The notes under the pieces: model-generated
What the model was told of the DNA's origin: nothing
The model's database searches: none
What the model saw: the letters and a program-made list of their open reading frames with translations, nothing else
DNA from: a virus
Virus record (IMG/VR): IMGVR_UViG_3300007512_000208
Coordinates: 1 to 23,488 of that record
Direction: 5' to 3' (one strand)
DNA length: 23,488 nucleotides
Shown: in pieces, positions 1,826-23,482 of the stretch
How the letters are laid out: each line of letters begins with the position of its first letter
Position numbering within the stretch: the stretch's first letter is position 1
Position numbers and translations under genes: made by a program

Positions 1826-1854
1826 ATTATACTTTCTCTTTTTAAAAAAGTTAA
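1826..1854 (-). promoter_or_regulatory. Candidate sigma70-type promoter
   Basis: On the sense strand, TTAACT (1854-1849) is followed after 17 bases by a perfect TATAAT (1831-1826). The predicted transcription start falls on the A of the ATG at 1819, which would give a leaderless mRNA for the 59-residue gene. The same transcript would supply the DpnI-like, lipoprotein and 5' nuclease genes, which otherwise depend on readthrough past the terminator at 2977-3003. The region is AT-rich, so chance is possible. Confidence 0.4.
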
Positions 1855-2963
1855 GAAGTTTCTTCATCCCCGTCGTAAAAGTTCTCCGCGTCACCTGTGC
1901 GCTCATGAAACTTAAGAACAATTTCCTCGTCCATTATTTCAAGAATGCGTTTGCGGAATTTTTCGACCTTTAGTTTTTCAAGCCAGCCTGATGATTGGAA
2001 CTTTTCTTGTGTACCGTCCGCATACGTTAATGTCCACCAAGTACCAGTCTTAATGTGTGGAGAAGATTTAACTGCTTCAAGCCAAGACTCTTCATCCATC
2101 ACGCCGACCTCTTCTCCCCACAATATCTTAAAGAAACAATTGCGTCCCTGCGTTCCAAAGCGGCTCTTCTCAAGCTTTACTTTAACCTCTGAGCCTATCC
2201 TGTATCCTTTGTCGTCGGTAACAAAGGAGGCTTTTGACTTCCTGCCAGTCAACCAGACTCTCAAAGAATAAGTATATATTAAAGCTTTGCCTCCGGGGGT
2301 GACGTAAGGTGTCGTCATCGCCTCTGCCGGTGAGCGAGTTATGTTTGTTTTTAACTGGTTTAAGACCAGCAATGTTGATTGTGAGTTTGCAATCGGGACC
2401 GTAAGTTTCGACATTCCCTTTGCTAAAATTCTTGGCTTGACTGCCATTGACGACTGAGGATTAAAATCTCCTTCAATATCTGATATCGAGGGGGTTAGTG
2501 CCAAAGAGTCCCAGATAAACAGCATCCGATTTTCATTGGAACCTAACAACTCCTCAATTGTCTCTAACACAAACTCAACAGATGTTGCCTGCACGTACAA
2601 TACATTGTCCACATTGCACCCTGCCTTCTCAAGAAAGCCGGGATCAATTGCAGACTCCGAATCAAAATAAATAACATCAATGCCCATCTTCTGAGCGTTG
2701 GCTGCAATCTGAGCGGCCATATAACTTTTGCCCGTTGATTCTAGGCCAGCAATCTCTGTGACCTTTCCAACTGGAACTCCTGCAACCTGCCCTCGGCAGA
2801 TAATGGAATCCAACCACCTTGAACCTGTCGGTATCCAGCTCCTAACAATCGTTGGACTGTTCTCGTTGAGATTGTGTGCGACGTTCATTCCTGCCTTTTT
2901 ATTGACAAGTTTGCGCATGTCCGCGATTGAAAGCTTTCCTGCTTTCTCTTTCTTTGAAACCAT
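1851..2963 (-). CDS. uvsX: UvsX/RecA-type recombinase
   Basis: The 370-residue product is an ATP-dependent strand-exchange protein that forms filaments on ssDNA and drives recombination, repair and recombination-dependent replication. Walker A is GLESTGKS (73-80), the catalytic-glutamate segment is YFDSES (99-104), and Walker B is MLFIWD (147-152). The segment VLNQLKTN followed by TTPYVTPGGKAL corresponds to the L2 DNA-binding loop region of RecA/UvsX. The length is close to T4 UvsX (about 390). The C-terminus is acidic (DAENFYDGDEE). AAAAGGAG stands just before the ATG and directly abuts the U-tract of the upstream terminator. Its natural partner, the gp32-type protein, is the preceding gene. 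Confidence 0.93.
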   Translation of the reverse strand: MVSKKEKAGKLSIADMRKLVNKKAGMNVAHNLNENSPTIVRSWIPTGSRWLDSIICRGQVAGVPVGKVTEIAGLESTGKSYMAAQIAANAQKMGIDVIYFDSESAIDPGFLEKAGCNVDNVLYVQATSVEFVLETIEELLGSNENRMLFIWDSLALTPSISDIEGDFNPQSSMAVKPRILAKGMSKLTVPIANSQSTLLVLNQLKTNITRSPAEAMTTPYVTPGGKALIYTYSLRVWLTGRKSKASFVTDDKGYRIGSEVKVKLEKSRFGTQGRNCFFKILWGEEVGVMDEESWLEAVKSSPHIKTGTWWTLTYADGTQEKFQSSGWLEKLKVEKFRKRILEIMDEEIVLKFHERTGDAENFYDGDEETS

Positions 2964-3017: not shown

Positions 3018-3806
3018 TTATGCGTTGGCTGACAAAAGCTCGTCAAATGACGCTTCTACAGAATTGACTTCATCCGACGTGGAAGTGGGTTCGCTACTGC
3101 TCTTATTGCCGTAACGGGTCGTCTCAGATGAAGTGGTTTCGGAATCATCCTCATCAAGCAAATACTCATCCAGCATTGCTCGAACCTCTTCTGTTGATTT
3201 GCGCTCAAACAGTCCATCAAAATCTGGAATGTTGTCGAGCATTTCCGCACATTGTGTCGCATCTAAATCCTCGCAAAGTGGGGAACTTCGGCGGCGGGGA
3301 GTCAATTTAGTTTGAGGAAATGATGCTCCTGCTGGCTTTCCATACGAAAGCACAAGATCGGTTCCTTCATCAACGTCCGTGATGTCTCCGTACTCGGGAT
3401 TCAATACCAAAGACAGCAGACTTTCATAAGCCATCTTCCCATATCCCCAAACACGCACACCATCAACCTCTTCGCCTCGGACGAGGACGGGAGAGAAGAA
3501 ACGTTGACGGGCGAAGAACTTTTTCGCCTCTTTAATACTCTCAGGAGTCTTCTCGTTGTAGAGCTTTGTTGCAAAGTTACAAACAGGGCACTCATCTCCA
3601 AAGTTACGCTTTGGACACAAGAAGCCGGAATTCGCACCCACATTATAGTGGAAGTGAAAATCTTTAAACGGGTCTCCATCAGCCGTTGGCACAATTCGAA
3701 TGGTTTGTTCGCCATCTTGGGGTCGCCAGAAATCTTTATTTTTGCCGCCGCCATTATTTTTAAGCGAATCCATTCTTTCTTTCATTTTGGTCATATCTAA
3801 AGTCAT
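3018..3806 (-). CDS. 32: gp32-type single-stranded DNA-binding protein
   Basis: The 262-residue product is a T4 gp32-type protein that coats ssDNA at the fork and in recombination. The zinc site is visible as H51, C64, C73 and C76 (FLCPKRNFGDECPVC); the spacing H-x12-C-x8-C-x2-C closely resembles H64/C77/C87/C90 of T4 gp32. The N-terminal part is basic (MTKMKERMDSLKNNGGGKNK), as expected for the cooperative-binding arm. The C-terminus has an acidic block (YLLDEDDSE) followed by a Ser/Thr/Glu-rich tail ending FDELLSANA, equivalent to the acidic domain that recruits other replication proteins. T4 gp32 is 301 residues. AAGGAG lies 11 bases before the ATG, behind an extended -10 promoter, and a strong terminator follows, so it may form a highly expressed single-gene transcript. 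Confidence 0.88.
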   Translation of the reverse strand: MTLDMTKMKERMDSLKNNGGGKNKDFWRPQDGEQTIRIVPTADGDPFKDFHFHYNVGANSGFLCPKRNFGDECPVCNFATKLYNEKTPESIKEAKKFFARQRFFSPVLVRGEEVDGVRVWGYGKMAYESLLSLVLNPEYGDITDVDEGTDLVLSYGKPAGASFPQTKLTPRRRSSPLCEDLDATQCAEMLDNIPDFDGLFERKSTEEVRAMLDEYLLDEDDSETTSSETTRYGNKSSSEPTSTSDEVNSVEASFDELLSANA

Positions 3807-3885: not shown

Positions 3886-4743
3886 TTAAATACCTTTTTC
3901 ATTATTCTGGACCATTGAGGCGCGCGGAAAAGAATAAACAAGAGTGTTCTCGTATTGGGTTGAAAATATTCCGAAGCTTGTTTTCATTTCTTCGTATTCT
4001 ATTTTGCTTTTTACTTGATCAACAACCCTGCTTAACAATTTTCCATCCTCGTCCAGAACTTTATCTGGCATTGCATAATAGTATCGTATATCTCGTATCT
4101 TGTCAAGAGGAAAAAACAACTTTTCTTCACCATTTTCATAATTAATCAAACCAAACGTTGTTATTCGAAGCGATGGGATACCCTCTGAGGAGAACGTATC
4201 AATCACAGGCTCTGAATGTTTGAACACATTAATCATATGAAAGGTGGAAGCTATTGTTTCATTCACCCTGTCGTAATACTCTCGAATGGGAACGTCTCCA
4301 ACCACTTGAGACATCTGCTTGTTTGACACGAGGACCACTTTTTCGAACACTCCGGAGCGCGCATACTCCTGCATCACCCCGAACATTAAATTGTCTTGTT
4401 TCTTTTTAACCTCTCCCAACAACTCTCGGTCGGGCTGAATATAAAGTATTGTAATTTTGCATTTCTTTTTTGCAAGCTGTTCTAGAATGCGCAGTGCAGC
4501 ACCAGATACAGACCCGCAAGAACTAATGAACAGGACATCTTTCTTTGTTACTCCTTTAAAAAAAGTTCGAATCTTTAGCGCTGGGCATTCTTTCTCGTAT
4601 TTCTCGGGATGATTGTGAAGAGGCATATCAAAACACCTCTTACCTTTCAGTCCGACATCCAATTTAAAAACATTATATTGCGGGTATTGCTCTAGCTTCT
4701 CAGCAATGTTGCAGCCTGCCGCTCCAAGTCCAATAATAATCAT
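3886..4743 (-). CDS. Divergent tubulin/FtsZ-superfamily protein
   Basis: The 285-residue product has the layout of a tubulin/FtsZ nucleotide-binding domain. A first beta strand leads into the glycine loop IIIGLGAAGCN (2-12; compare GVGGGGSN in FtsZ). DVLFISSCGSVSGAALRILEQL (69-90; core 74-82) occupies the place of the G-box GGGTGTGA and its helix. KITILYIQP (96-104) fits the next strand. REYYDRVNETIASTFHMINVF (154-174; core YYDRVNETIA) resembles the base-contacting segment and helix H7, recalling DNEA in tubulins. The family's T7 loop NxDxxD is reduced to EPVIDTF (178-184), and most G-box glycines are lost, so GTPase activity may be weak or altered. Phage relatives of known role are PhuZ and TubZ; this protein is shorter and does not obviously belong to either. 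It overlaps the polymerase stop as ATGA. I infer a filament or nucleotide-binding role linked to replication. The fold assignment is by motif reading. Confidence 0.65.
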   Translation of the reverse strand: MIIIGLGAAGCNIAEKLEQYPQYNVFKLDVGLKGKRCFDMPLHNHPEKYEKECPALKIRTFFKGVTKKDVLFISSCGSVSGAALRILEQLAKKKCKITILYIQPDRELLGEVKKKQDNLMFGVMQEYARSGVFEKVVLVSNKQMSQVVGDVPIREYYDRVNETIASTFHMINVFKHSEPVIDTFSSEGIPSLRITTFGLINYENGEEKLFFPLDKIRDIRYYYAMPDKVLDEDGKLLSRVVDQVKSKIEYEEMKTSFGIFSTQYENTLVYSFPRASMVQNNEKGI

Positions 4744-5927
4744 ATCTTTAACTCTTTCATTTCTCCAAAGCTTTTTCCAGCGGACACGTTAACAAGGAAC
4801 TTTCCAAGTTCAGTGTCGGCGAACATGTTCTTTAATTTTACCAAATCTCGCATATCTTTTTCAGAAAAATCTAAAACAAGAGAGTCGTGCAGCGAAAAGG
4901 CGACATAAGAATCCTTACCTTCTAGACTTTCCCACACTTTAATCATCTGCCTTAAAAATAAATCGGCAGCGGTTGACTGAACAGTATAGTTGAGCGCGTG
5001 ATGCTCTCCTGCTGGGATTATTCTGTCGAACGCTGTCTTAACCTGTTTCCCGTCCCAATGTTTTTTCAGTAGCGCGCCCCTGTCATACATTTTATTGGAA
5101 AGAGTGTCCTTGGACTCGGGATTATACAGCCATGAAAAGATTCTTTTCTTAGCTTCCTCTCTCGTTAGCTTATTACCATAAACATTCTTTATGTTCCATT
5201 CGTGGATATCTTCTTGAGGTTGTCCCTTTCCTAAAAGCGCAATCATTACACGGAGTTCCATTGCGTTAAAGTCAAACTCAACAAACCAATCATTGTTCGG
5301 TTTAAGCACTTTCCGGTACGTCTTGTCCATTGTCAGAATTGGGAACGAGCCCTTCTGAGTTGATAGTCTCCCAGTCTTTGTTCCAAACATATCATATTTG
5401 ATATATTTTCCTTTGTTTTTGTACTTCTTGCAGAACTGATGGACTCTGACCTCGTGCATTCTACCCCTTAAAGCCAACACATCAACATTTAATTTTTTAT
5501 ATCTGATTTCCGTTAGAACCTTCTTGAGAGAAAGCAGAAAATCATAGTTGTCTGGTCTTTCAAAGTTCAATAAAACATACTCTGTAATTTTATTCTTGAC
5601 GGCGCAATAATCTACAAGGAATCTCTTGGGAACCATATCAAAAAAACAATGTTCTTCTAAATTCAGCTTGGCCTCTTCCATTGATCGGTGATATGCTCTA
5701 AGCTTACCGTAAGACTCTTCCCACTCTGGACGTAGGTAGTCTGGACAGACTTGATCGAGTGTTTGCCCTCCGCAAAACAGTTGTGCGTATTCAATGTTAT
5801 TGAATTTACCTAAGAACTCTGTATAGTTCCAAGTTCTTGTTGGGTCTTTTGGGAGTTTTTTGAAAAGCTTGGCGTTGTAGTAGGCAGTAACGCACTGATT
5901 CTTATCATCAAGTGTTTGAAAAATCAT
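4740..5927 (-). CDS. Family A DNA polymerase, polymerase domain only
   Basis: The 395-residue product carries the family A polymerase motifs in order: TKTGRLSTQKGSFPIL (183-198, the template-contacting RLSS-type motif); motif A FVEFDFNAMELR (215-226) with metal ligand D219; the O-helix R256-x3-K260-x3-F264-x3-Y268, exactly the register of R754/K758/F762/Y766 in E. coli Pol I; ALNYTVQSTAADLFLRQMI (311-329); and motif C SLHDSLVLDF (345-354) with D348. Motif C has HDS in place of the usual HDE. F264 predicts discrimination against dideoxynucleotides. No 3'-5' exonuclease domain is present, and the N-terminal 180 residues are too short and unlike it; the 5' nuclease is a separate gene at 1-743. 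It replaces the family B gp43 of T4. Only AGGA one base before the ATG serves as a ribosome site, which fits the nearly leaderless promoter at 5937-5964. A proofreading subunit may lie outside the window. Confidence 0.9.
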   Translation of the reverse strand: MIFQTLDDKNQCVTAYYNAKLFKKLPKDPTRTWNYTEFLGKFNNIEYAQLFCGGQTLDQVCPDYLRPEWEESYGKLRAYHRSMEEAKLNLEEHCFFDMVPKRFLVDYCAVKNKITEYVLLNFERPDNYDFLLSLKKVLTEIRYKKLNVDVLALRGRMHEVRVHQFCKKYKNKGKYIKYDMFGTKTGRLSTQKGSFPILTMDKTYRKVLKPNNDWFVEFDFNAMELRVMIALLGKGQPQEDIHEWNIKNVYGNKLTREEAKKRIFSWLYNPESKDTLSNKMYDRGALLKKHWDGKQVKTAFDRIIPAGEHHALNYTVQSTAADLFLRQMIKVWESLEGKDSYVAFSLHDSLVLDFSEKDMRDLVKLKNMFADTELGKFLVNVSAGKSFGEMKELKI

Positions 5928-21766: not shown

Positions 21767-23482
21767 TTAACCAATAAGGTCAGAAACAACAACTAAGCCG
21801 TACATATCTGGGCGAACCATTTTCTTAGCATAGCGTGTCATCACACCCTTTCTTGGTACGAAGTCTTCCGTACCGAAGATGGTGGGCGTAACTTGTAGTG
21901 GTACATAAGGAGCATATACATAGCCACTCTCAAGGAAGCTATTACCCTTACGTCCTACAAGAACAACATTACGTGGGAAGTATGGATCAACCCAAACGTC
22001 CCATTTCTTGCTCATGCTACCAGCTTTAATTGCGCCAACAGTACCTTTCGCCTCATCAGCGGCAATGTTTGCACGGAAACCGCTAGTGAACTCAAGAATG
22101 TTAGCAACCTCGGGACCACAAACCAAGAAGTTTGCGCCTCCGCGAAGCGTCTTACGGTGGATCTGAGCCGAGCAGTCGTTGATTGTCTCAACAAGAGTCT
22201 CGTACCACTCAGAAACCGTACCGGTGAAGTCCGGGAAGAGTGTTCCGTTAACAGAGAGACCAGTCTCTTTGTTTACGAATTTACCCGGCTTGCGTGACCA
22301 GTAGTAAGTTGCTGCTTTTGCACCTTTAACTAGATCTTCAATAATCTCGCGATCAATCTCAAGAGCGATCTGCTCAGAGAGGATCGAAGTAAGCTCAACC
22401 TCTGCATCCAAGTTGTGATAAGCGTTGAGGTCCTGACCAAGTTCAGGGGTCCATTTTGCTTTCAACTTTTTGGTGATTGCAGTAACGGAGATCGAATCTA
22501 CTTTGATGTCGATTTCCGGAATCGCCTCAGTGTTCTCAAGGCCCCAGCTATCTTCACCAACCACTGCACCAAGAGCGTTTGTTGCGCCTGCTGCGGGAGT
22601 ACCTGTGAAGTCGTCGATAATTGGGAACTCTGCACGAGAGAAACCTTCCAAAGCTCCACGAAGATTTGCTGTGGTCTCACTACCAGTTGGTGCAAGAACA
22701 ACAAGAACACGTGTAACATCGGAACTACCAGTTGCTTGAACAGGGTCCAAGACCGACAAACGACGAACAAGGTGTGACGAGCCCGTGTGACCTTTAGATT
22801 TCAAAAGGTTCATTGAGATAAGGTTGTCGCGGTTGACTGGTGTGCTATTGCTATCTACCAATGCGGAAAGCAACAATGTACCAACAGCAACGGCAGAACC
22901 ACTAAGATCCGGGTCAAAGCGGACAAGCTTGTCGCCCATTGCCGAATATGAGTTTGCAGCTACATCACTGCGACCGCCGGGACCCCAGCTTGTGGGATCA
23001 CCAACAGTACCAGTTGCGCGAATAGTAACAGTTACTGTTGCGGAACCAGTTGGTGACGAATAACCATTGCTCAAGTTGTAGAAGCCCTTGTCTGAATCGA
23101 GTCCAGTTAGGACAACACCATCCTTGATGCCTTGACCAACCTTGCCTCCACCGTACAAAGAATCGTTAGAAGCTGGTGAGTGAATACCATCCTCATTGAT
23201 TCCAAGACGAGCGTTAGTGTGCTGGAAGTCTAGGAAGAAGATCAGACCAGAGGGTAAACTCATAGGCTGAACTGATACTAGATCGTTTGCGATGAGACCA
23301 CCGAATACTCGGCGGACGATTGGAAACGCTACGGAAGCGAAACCTTCAACATCACCTTGGGCCATTGTACTGGCCTCTCTAAGAAGCTCTCGGGCTTGAT
23401 TCTCAAGCAAGCGAGCCATTGTTTGACGAGAGTGATCAGCGTTAATACCTTCAAGCAAGCCGGTTTTTTCCCACTTGCCCAT
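21767..23482 (-). CDS. 23: Major capsid protein (gp23-type)
   Basis: The 571-residue product forms the head shell hexamers. The N-terminus KWEKTGLLEGINADHSRQ followed by ARLLENQ corresponds to KWKPLLEG...IFENQ of T4 gp23, and FPIVRRVFGGLIANDLVSVQPMSLPSGLIF (core LIANDLVSVQPMSLPSG) to the conserved VRR...DICGVQPMNSPTG. The C-terminus (PYVPLQVTPTIFGTEDFVPR then GVMTRYAKKMVRP) is the conserved end of the fold. A prohead-protease-like site LRE|A occurs at residues 34-37. This would remove about 36 residues, against 65 in T4. T4 gp23 is 521 residues. The ATG is six bases from the window edge, so its leader is not visible and a start further upstream cannot be excluded, although the N-terminal match supports this one. 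Confidence 0.93.
   Translation of the reverse strand: MGKWEKTGLLEGINADHSRQTMARLLENQARELLREASTMAQGDVEGFASVAFPIVRRVFGGLIANDLVSVQPMSLPSGLIFFLDFQHTNARLGINEDGIHSPASNDSLYGGGKVGQGIKDGVVLTGLDSDKGFYNLSNGYSSPTGSATVTVTIRATGTVGDPTSWGPGGRSDVAANSYSAMGDKLVRFDPDLSGSAVAVGTLLLSALVDSNSTPVNRDNLISMNLLKSKGHTGSSHLVRRLSVLDPVQATGSSDVTRVLVVLAPTGSETTANLRGALEGFSRAEFPIIDDFTGTPAAGATNALGAVVGEDSWGLENTEAIPEIDIKVDSISVTAITKKLKAKWTPELGQDLNAYHNLDAEVELTSILSEQIALEIDREIIEDLVKGAKAATYYWSRKPGKFVNKETGLSVNGTLFPDFTGTVSEWYETLVETINDCSAQIHRKTLRGGANFLVCGPEVANILEFTSGFRANIAADEAKGTVGAIKAGSMSKKWDVWVDPYFPRNVVLVGRKGNSFLESGYVYAPYVPLQVTPTIFGTEDFVPRKGVMTRYAKKMVRPDMYGLVVVSDLIG

Follow-up and report, generated by a model that had tools for sequence, protein, structure and literature searches.

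A predicted tubulin-fold protein without conserved GTP hydrolysis residues, encoded among the replication genes of uncultured T4-related phages

The window, a stretch of 23,488 bases from a virus record, encodes a 285-amino-acid protein whose predicted structure supports membership in the tubulin/FtsZ superfamily. We hypothesize that it is a GTP-binding, hydrolysis-deficient tubulin-fold scaffold working with the phage replication apparatus, and give this reading a probability of roughly 45%. The known phage tubulins PhuZ and TubZ form filaments for positioning or partition. In a widespread uncultured phage lineage, the gene described here has a fixed place among the replication genes. Its protein family escapes the standard annotation profiles and no longer has the residues that serve in GTP hydrolysis. 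The family would either extend tubulin-type proteins into DNA replication or show a static use of the superfamily. The gene is located as follows.

3886 to 4743, minus strand: tubulin/FtsZ-superfamily protein, 285 amino acids (open reading frame; AlphaFold2 model; Foldseek and VIA matches)

The open reading frame, present as described in an earlier note made from the DNA letters, was a real and conserved gene as judged by its homologues and dN/dS. Patterns derived from the single sequence retrieved 8 homologues, and a six-sequence profile scan of IMG/VR retrieved 321 relatives. A broader profile confirmed 597 of 600 QEYARSG DNA-pattern matches, among the matches listed, as family members, which puts the family on at least 597 uncultured viral contigs. 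In 37 close pairs, the median dN/dS was 0.09 (maximum 0.17); the gene is therefore under purifying selection. The nearest relative (L001) differed from the window gene by a dN of 0.127 and a dS of 1.43, the latter near saturation. When three large contigs were scanned with the profile of the family, each proved to have a single copy. No match to the family was found in 50,697 phage records, a protein search of cultured phages and a search of plasmids gave no homologue, and no description of the family was found in the open-access literature searched. The sole bacterial match (L089) was in a WOR-3 metagenome-assembled genome (CP070664.1), where a phage piece of about 5 kb, carrying the DNA polymerase, tubulin-like, gp32 and UvsX genes, lay inside the chromosome between runs of N. 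As such runs flanked the cassette on both sides, the scaffold was taken to be a phage–bacterium chimera and a cellular or prophage origin was rejected.

A first model built with six sequences had a pLDDT of 73.5; with 44 homologues, AlphaFold2 gave a pLDDT of 94.3 and a pTM of 0.92. The model contained the architecture of the superfamily, namely an N-terminal Rossmann-like nucleotide domain, the central helix H7 and a C-terminal mixed domain. The best 50 Foldseek matches in the PDB were FtsZ throughout, with E-values down to 1.9e-12 and TM-scores of about 0.65–0.72 on the query. VIA-align 2 gave Z-scores of 25.2 for CetZ, 23.6 for TubZ, 23.2 for FtsZ and 22.5 for tubulin, where rows up to 1 Z unit apart count as ties. 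These alignments spanned the query from residue 1 to 285 and covered both domains, with 262–280 residues aligned. The best matches in a viral structure library were again FtsZ, tubulin and PhuZ proteins. The earlier note had read the protein as a tubulin/FtsZ-superfamily member and proposed structure prediction with Foldseek as a check; the confident model bore this reading out at full length, with a tubulin-type fold instead of a different one. A Rossmann dehydrogenase or ThiF-like fold was rejected, as the model matches tubulins and weak NAD-type profile matches in the window protein were limited to the glycine loop. The model likewise ruled out a new, unrelated nucleotide-binding fold, which had been one of the note's proposals.

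Sequence comparison gave weaker signals. PF00091 (Tubulin) scored the window protein at an E-value of 0.12 (13.1 bits, cut-off 33) and matched 12 of the 44 homologues, with a best E-value of 1.9e-4. TIGR00065 (FtsZ) scored it at an E-value of 0.05 and 12.9 bits, below the curated cut-off of 295.2. The HHpred search that the note had proposed was approximated with hhalign, which gave a marginal p of 0.0013 against an eight-sequence FtsZ alignment, compared with 0.11 for UvsX as an unrelated control. No significant match came from profile searches of PDB sequences, and Pfam FtsZ_C had no match in the window protein. Since these scores are marginal, the superfamily assignment stands mainly on the predicted structure, with which the sequence agrees.

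The motifs first noticed in the sequence were all present (GLGAAGCN at residues 5–12, SSCGSVSGA at 74–82 and YYDRVNETIA at 156–165). Residue conservation was counted over 108 homologues, and the elements concerned are listed here.

4708 to 4734, minus strand: T1 glycine loop, residues 4–12 (IGLGAAGCN; G5 104/108, G7 106/108, A9 101/108, G10 98/108)
4594 to 4605, minus strand: EKYE motif, residues 47–50, at the T3 position (E47 108/108, Y49 104/108)
4498 to 4527, minus strand: degenerate T4 loop, residues 73–82 (ISSCGSVSGA), where the consensus [GS][SC]Gx[VI][SA][GAN] replaces GGGTG[ST]G
4351 to 4371, minus strand: QEYARSG family signature, residues 125–131, at the end of helix H5 (Q125 and R129 108/108, S130 107/108)
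4315 to 4332, minus strand: T6 loop with Asn141, a guanine contact by homology (N141 108/108)
4219 to 4287, minus strand: core helix H7, residues 153–175, with Y157 and N161 at guanine-contact positions (N161 108/108)
4165 to 4218, minus strand: region replacing the T7 loop and helix H8, residues 176–193 (column counts; DSSP of the model)
4102 to 4128, minus strand: EEKLFFPLD hairpin, residues 206–214, in the place of FtsZ H9 (E207 103/108, K208 97/108, F211 101/108, L213 101/108, D214 98/108)

In the register obtained by hhalign with the broader profile, N141 corresponded to N165 (T6) of E. coli FtsZ, Y157 to F182, and N161 to N186 (H7), positions that contact guanine in established FtsZ and tubulin structures. 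Residue 157 was nearly always aromatic in the homologues (mostly Y, W, F or H), and P46-E47 aligned with P74-E75 of FtsZ by hhalign. The AlphaFold2 model showed the helix at 153–175 and, within the EEKLFFPLD hairpin, a strand at 207–209. These conserved residues suggest that the protein most likely binds a guanine nucleotide in the classical pocket. Invariant or near-invariant residues specific to the family were E47, Q125, R129, S130, Y221 and Q279. From the topology, Q125–S130 would lie at the edge of the sheet, on the far side from the nucleotide.

The elements used for hydrolysis had fared differently. The GGGTG[ST]G signature of the T4 loop was absent from the consensus of the 108 homologues. 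The loss of the canonical glycines claimed in the earlier note thus applied to T4, but not to T1, where G5, G7, A9 and G10 were strongly conserved. The note had called the catalytic NxDxxD of T7 largely lost, which understated the case: no conserved acid was present at residues 176–193 in the 108 homologues. DSSP assigned no helix H8 to the same residues in the model. The evidence for the absence of T7 and H8 comes from a single predicted monomer and from an alignment in which the T7 register is uncertain; an alternative hhalign register with a shortened H7 likewise contained no T7 acids. The conservation counts for T4 and T7 agreed with the degenerate hydrolysis machinery that had been proposed, and GTP hydrolysis by the window protein is probably poor or absent. 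As the T4 phosphate loop is degenerate, nucleotide binding may itself be weak or lost, in which case the conserved Asn residues may be structural.

The gene lies in a replication cassette with three further genes.

4740 to 5927, minus strand: short family-A DNA polymerase, 395 amino acids (Pfam DNA_pol_A, E-value 4.5e-17)
3018 to 3806, minus strand: gp32-like single-strand DNA-binding protein (Pfam gp32, E-value 3.5e-11; PHROG 1192, E-value 6e-26)
1851 to 2963, minus strand: UvsX/RecA-like recombinase (Pfam RecA, E-value 3.5e-35; PHROG UvsX-like, E-value 5e-52)

The ATG of the tubulin-like gene overlaps the TGA of the polymerase gene by 4 nt (tcat at 4740–4743), as expected from the start–stop coupling noticed earlier, and the polymerase-adjoining context was conserved. 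Among loci fetched by the tubulin-like gene, the order polA, tubulin-like gene, gp32, UvsX was repeated wherever the contig was long enough. When loci were picked by the polymerase alone, the tubulin-like gene adjoined it in 59 of 60; in the remaining one, the contig piece stops about 200 bases beyond the polymerase. The 4-nt ATGA overlap was found at 45 of 176 loci, and the two genes were at most 30 bases apart at 124 of 176. Gp32 was downstream on the same strand at all 212 loci (212/212). Pairwise distances of the tubulin-like protein correlated with those of polA (Mantel r = 0.83), gp32 (0.81) and UvsX (0.67), all far higher than with permuted data; the largest of 999 permutations was below 0.20 in the polA and gp32 comparisons. 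The tubulin-like gene is co-inherited with polA and gp32. Structural genes were located directly upstream of the polymerase.

The phages concerned form an uncultured lineage related to T4, in which the tubulin-like protein is a core protein and the large relatives measured 111–185 kb. The phage had been called T4-like, which was correct for the gp23-like capsid protein and the structural genes, yet the polymerase is a short family-A enzyme. The nearest capsid relatives were Flavobacterium phage immuto, Microcystis phage Mel-JY01, Rhodothermus phage RM378 and uncultured phages. RM378, immuto and Mel-JY01 had no match to the family profile, whereas three contigs of the lineage (155–185 kb) matched it. 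RM378 and Mel-JY01 likewise carry short polymerase I genes. Isolated phages in the collection contained no relative of the polymerase, and the one weak match was an uncultured faecal record. No canonical FtsZ or tubulin was found above the cut-off in five large contigs searched with TIGR00065 and PF00091, and a canonical host-acquired FtsZ was rejected on this basis. Canonical FtsZ genes with about 42–55% identity to E. coli FtsZ were seen in public 'phage' records (MT835756.1, MT835570.1, OR846604.1 and others), which look like bacterial contamination.

Some other features of these phages were observed. Against the nearest cultured relatives, the gp23-like capsid protein of the window (21767–23482) aligned as two separate segments covering about 60%, which suggests an inserted domain. 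The 157 kb relative G001 carried a tmRNA gene (L164:12515-12761, minus strand; Rfam 98.4 bits; ARAGORN tag ANDNVALSLAA), and this phage tmRNA may help to identify the host. Giant open reading frames were present in G001 (101473–111282; 3,269 amino acids) and in a second relative, G002 (62692–73047; 3,451 amino acids).

In the tubulin/FtsZ superfamily, the T7 acids and H8 complete the active site of the neighbouring subunit. As both are missing, the protein probably does not form a cytomotive filament that is dynamic and hydrolyses GTP. Its gene is clustered with those for a polymerase, a single-strand DNA-binding protein and a UvsX recombinase, and the protein would have a tubulin/FtsZ-type fold, most likely with a guanine nucleotide in the classical pocket. 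The nucleotide-loaded scaffold would then most likely act, as a single molecule or a static oligomer, with or beside the phage replisome. Among the proposals of the earlier note, the best match is a protein that does not hydrolyse GTP and is linked to replication. A role in replication is suggested by the gene's context, although gene position is no proof of action at the replisome. We also put forward, as a tentative idea, that the protein has given up dynamic polymerisation and is now a fixed subunit or loader of the DNA replication machine, rather than part of a cytoskeleton.

Alternatively, the protein could form stable filaments that are not dynamic and serve to position or organise replicating phage DNA, as a static counterpart of PhuZ and TubZ. 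The predicted tubulin fold across both domains is consistent with this, and both the nucleotide side (T1, T6, H7) and distant residues (QxxxRS, EEKxFF) are conserved, which end-to-end contact would require. A GTPase-dead T7 mutant of PhuZ still gives non-dynamic filaments (PMC7950403), so the loss of T7 alone is compatible with static filaments. However, the T7–H8 region that normally makes up half of the longitudinal contact is missing, which makes the usual protofilament less likely, and no TubR-like gene adjoined the tubulin-like gene at the loci examined. We consider static filaments rather unlikely.

A non-polymerising nucleotide-binding regulator or enzyme that merely reuses the fold, for instance a nucleotide sensor of the replisome, appears improbable. 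It would account for the invariant residues of the family that lie away from the known pocket (E47, Q125, R129, Y221, Q279) and for weak NAD-binding profile scores in some members. However, the NAD-type matches in the window protein span only the glycine loop (residues 1–30 or 2–21), which is common to Rossmann and tubulin folds, and no catalytic motif was recognised. Slightly less probable still is a protein that targets host FtsZ, as the earlier note had also proposed, blocking division during infection by capping or co-assembly through its nucleotide face: a nucleotide face without a T7/H8 face is what might be expected of a one-sided cap, and FtsZ ranked first in Foldseek, but sequence similarity to FtsZ is marginal, and the gene has a constant place between polymerase and gp32 and co-evolves with both, whereas genes for host takeover tend to be early and variable.

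Compared with known systems, the tubulin-like protein resembles FtsZ, the bacterial and archaeal cell division GTPase, in its full-length fold and in the alignment of the guanine positions of T1, T6 and H7. It differs in its low identity (10–14%), in lacking GGGTG[ST]G in T4 and NxDxxD in T7, in the replacement of H8 and H9, in having no FtsZ_C match and in its phage replication context. The archaeal CetZ gave the top VIA Z-score (25.2 over 262 residues, 3zid; CetZ2, 24.3), but identity was 17% and the window protein has the T4-loop, T7 and H8 losses. The context of CetZ is archaeal cell shape.

PhuZ of phiKZ-like jumbo phages is also a phage-encoded tubulin fold (BFVD match, E-value 6e-6) and has a similar T1-H1-S2 stretch, including an Asp after S2, which alone is not significant. 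PhuZ of phiKZ matched Pfam TubZ_C_2 at 1.7e-37, whereas the window protein had no match at E-values up to 10 and TubZ_C_2 was not among the 25 families listed for the homologues at E-values up to 1. PhuZ retains the catalytic T7 Asp (PMC3678025), in contrast to the tubulin-like family, which has no conserved T7 acid. In Chimalliviridae, PhuZ is missing in a third and is dispensable (PMC10299810). Searching with phiKZ gp54, we found no nuclear-shell protein in seven large contigs of the window lineage (111–185 kb), which may be incomplete and in which a distant homologue could be missed; as a control, the same search found 201phi2-1 at 6.6e-138.

TubZ, the plasmid and phage partition tubulin, aligned with a VIA Z-score of 23.6 over 279 residues. 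It works with TubR and tubS repeats (PMC7950403), whereas the window gene adjoins polymerase and gp32, with no tandem repeat array nearby in the window. FtsZl1 and FtsZl2 (Makarova and Koonin 2010) are likewise divergent, functionally unusual members of the superfamily. Both are cellular, membrane-linked families discovered through the T4 signature; in FtsZl1 the T6-H7 elements could not be located, FtsZl2 retains T1, T4, T6 and T7, and phages go unmentioned in that paper (PMC2875224). FtsZl1 was thus recognised through the very signature that the tubulin-like family has lost. By its fold, the tubulin-like protein is a member of the superfamily, and by the features tested it is outside the FtsZ, PhuZ and TubZ families.
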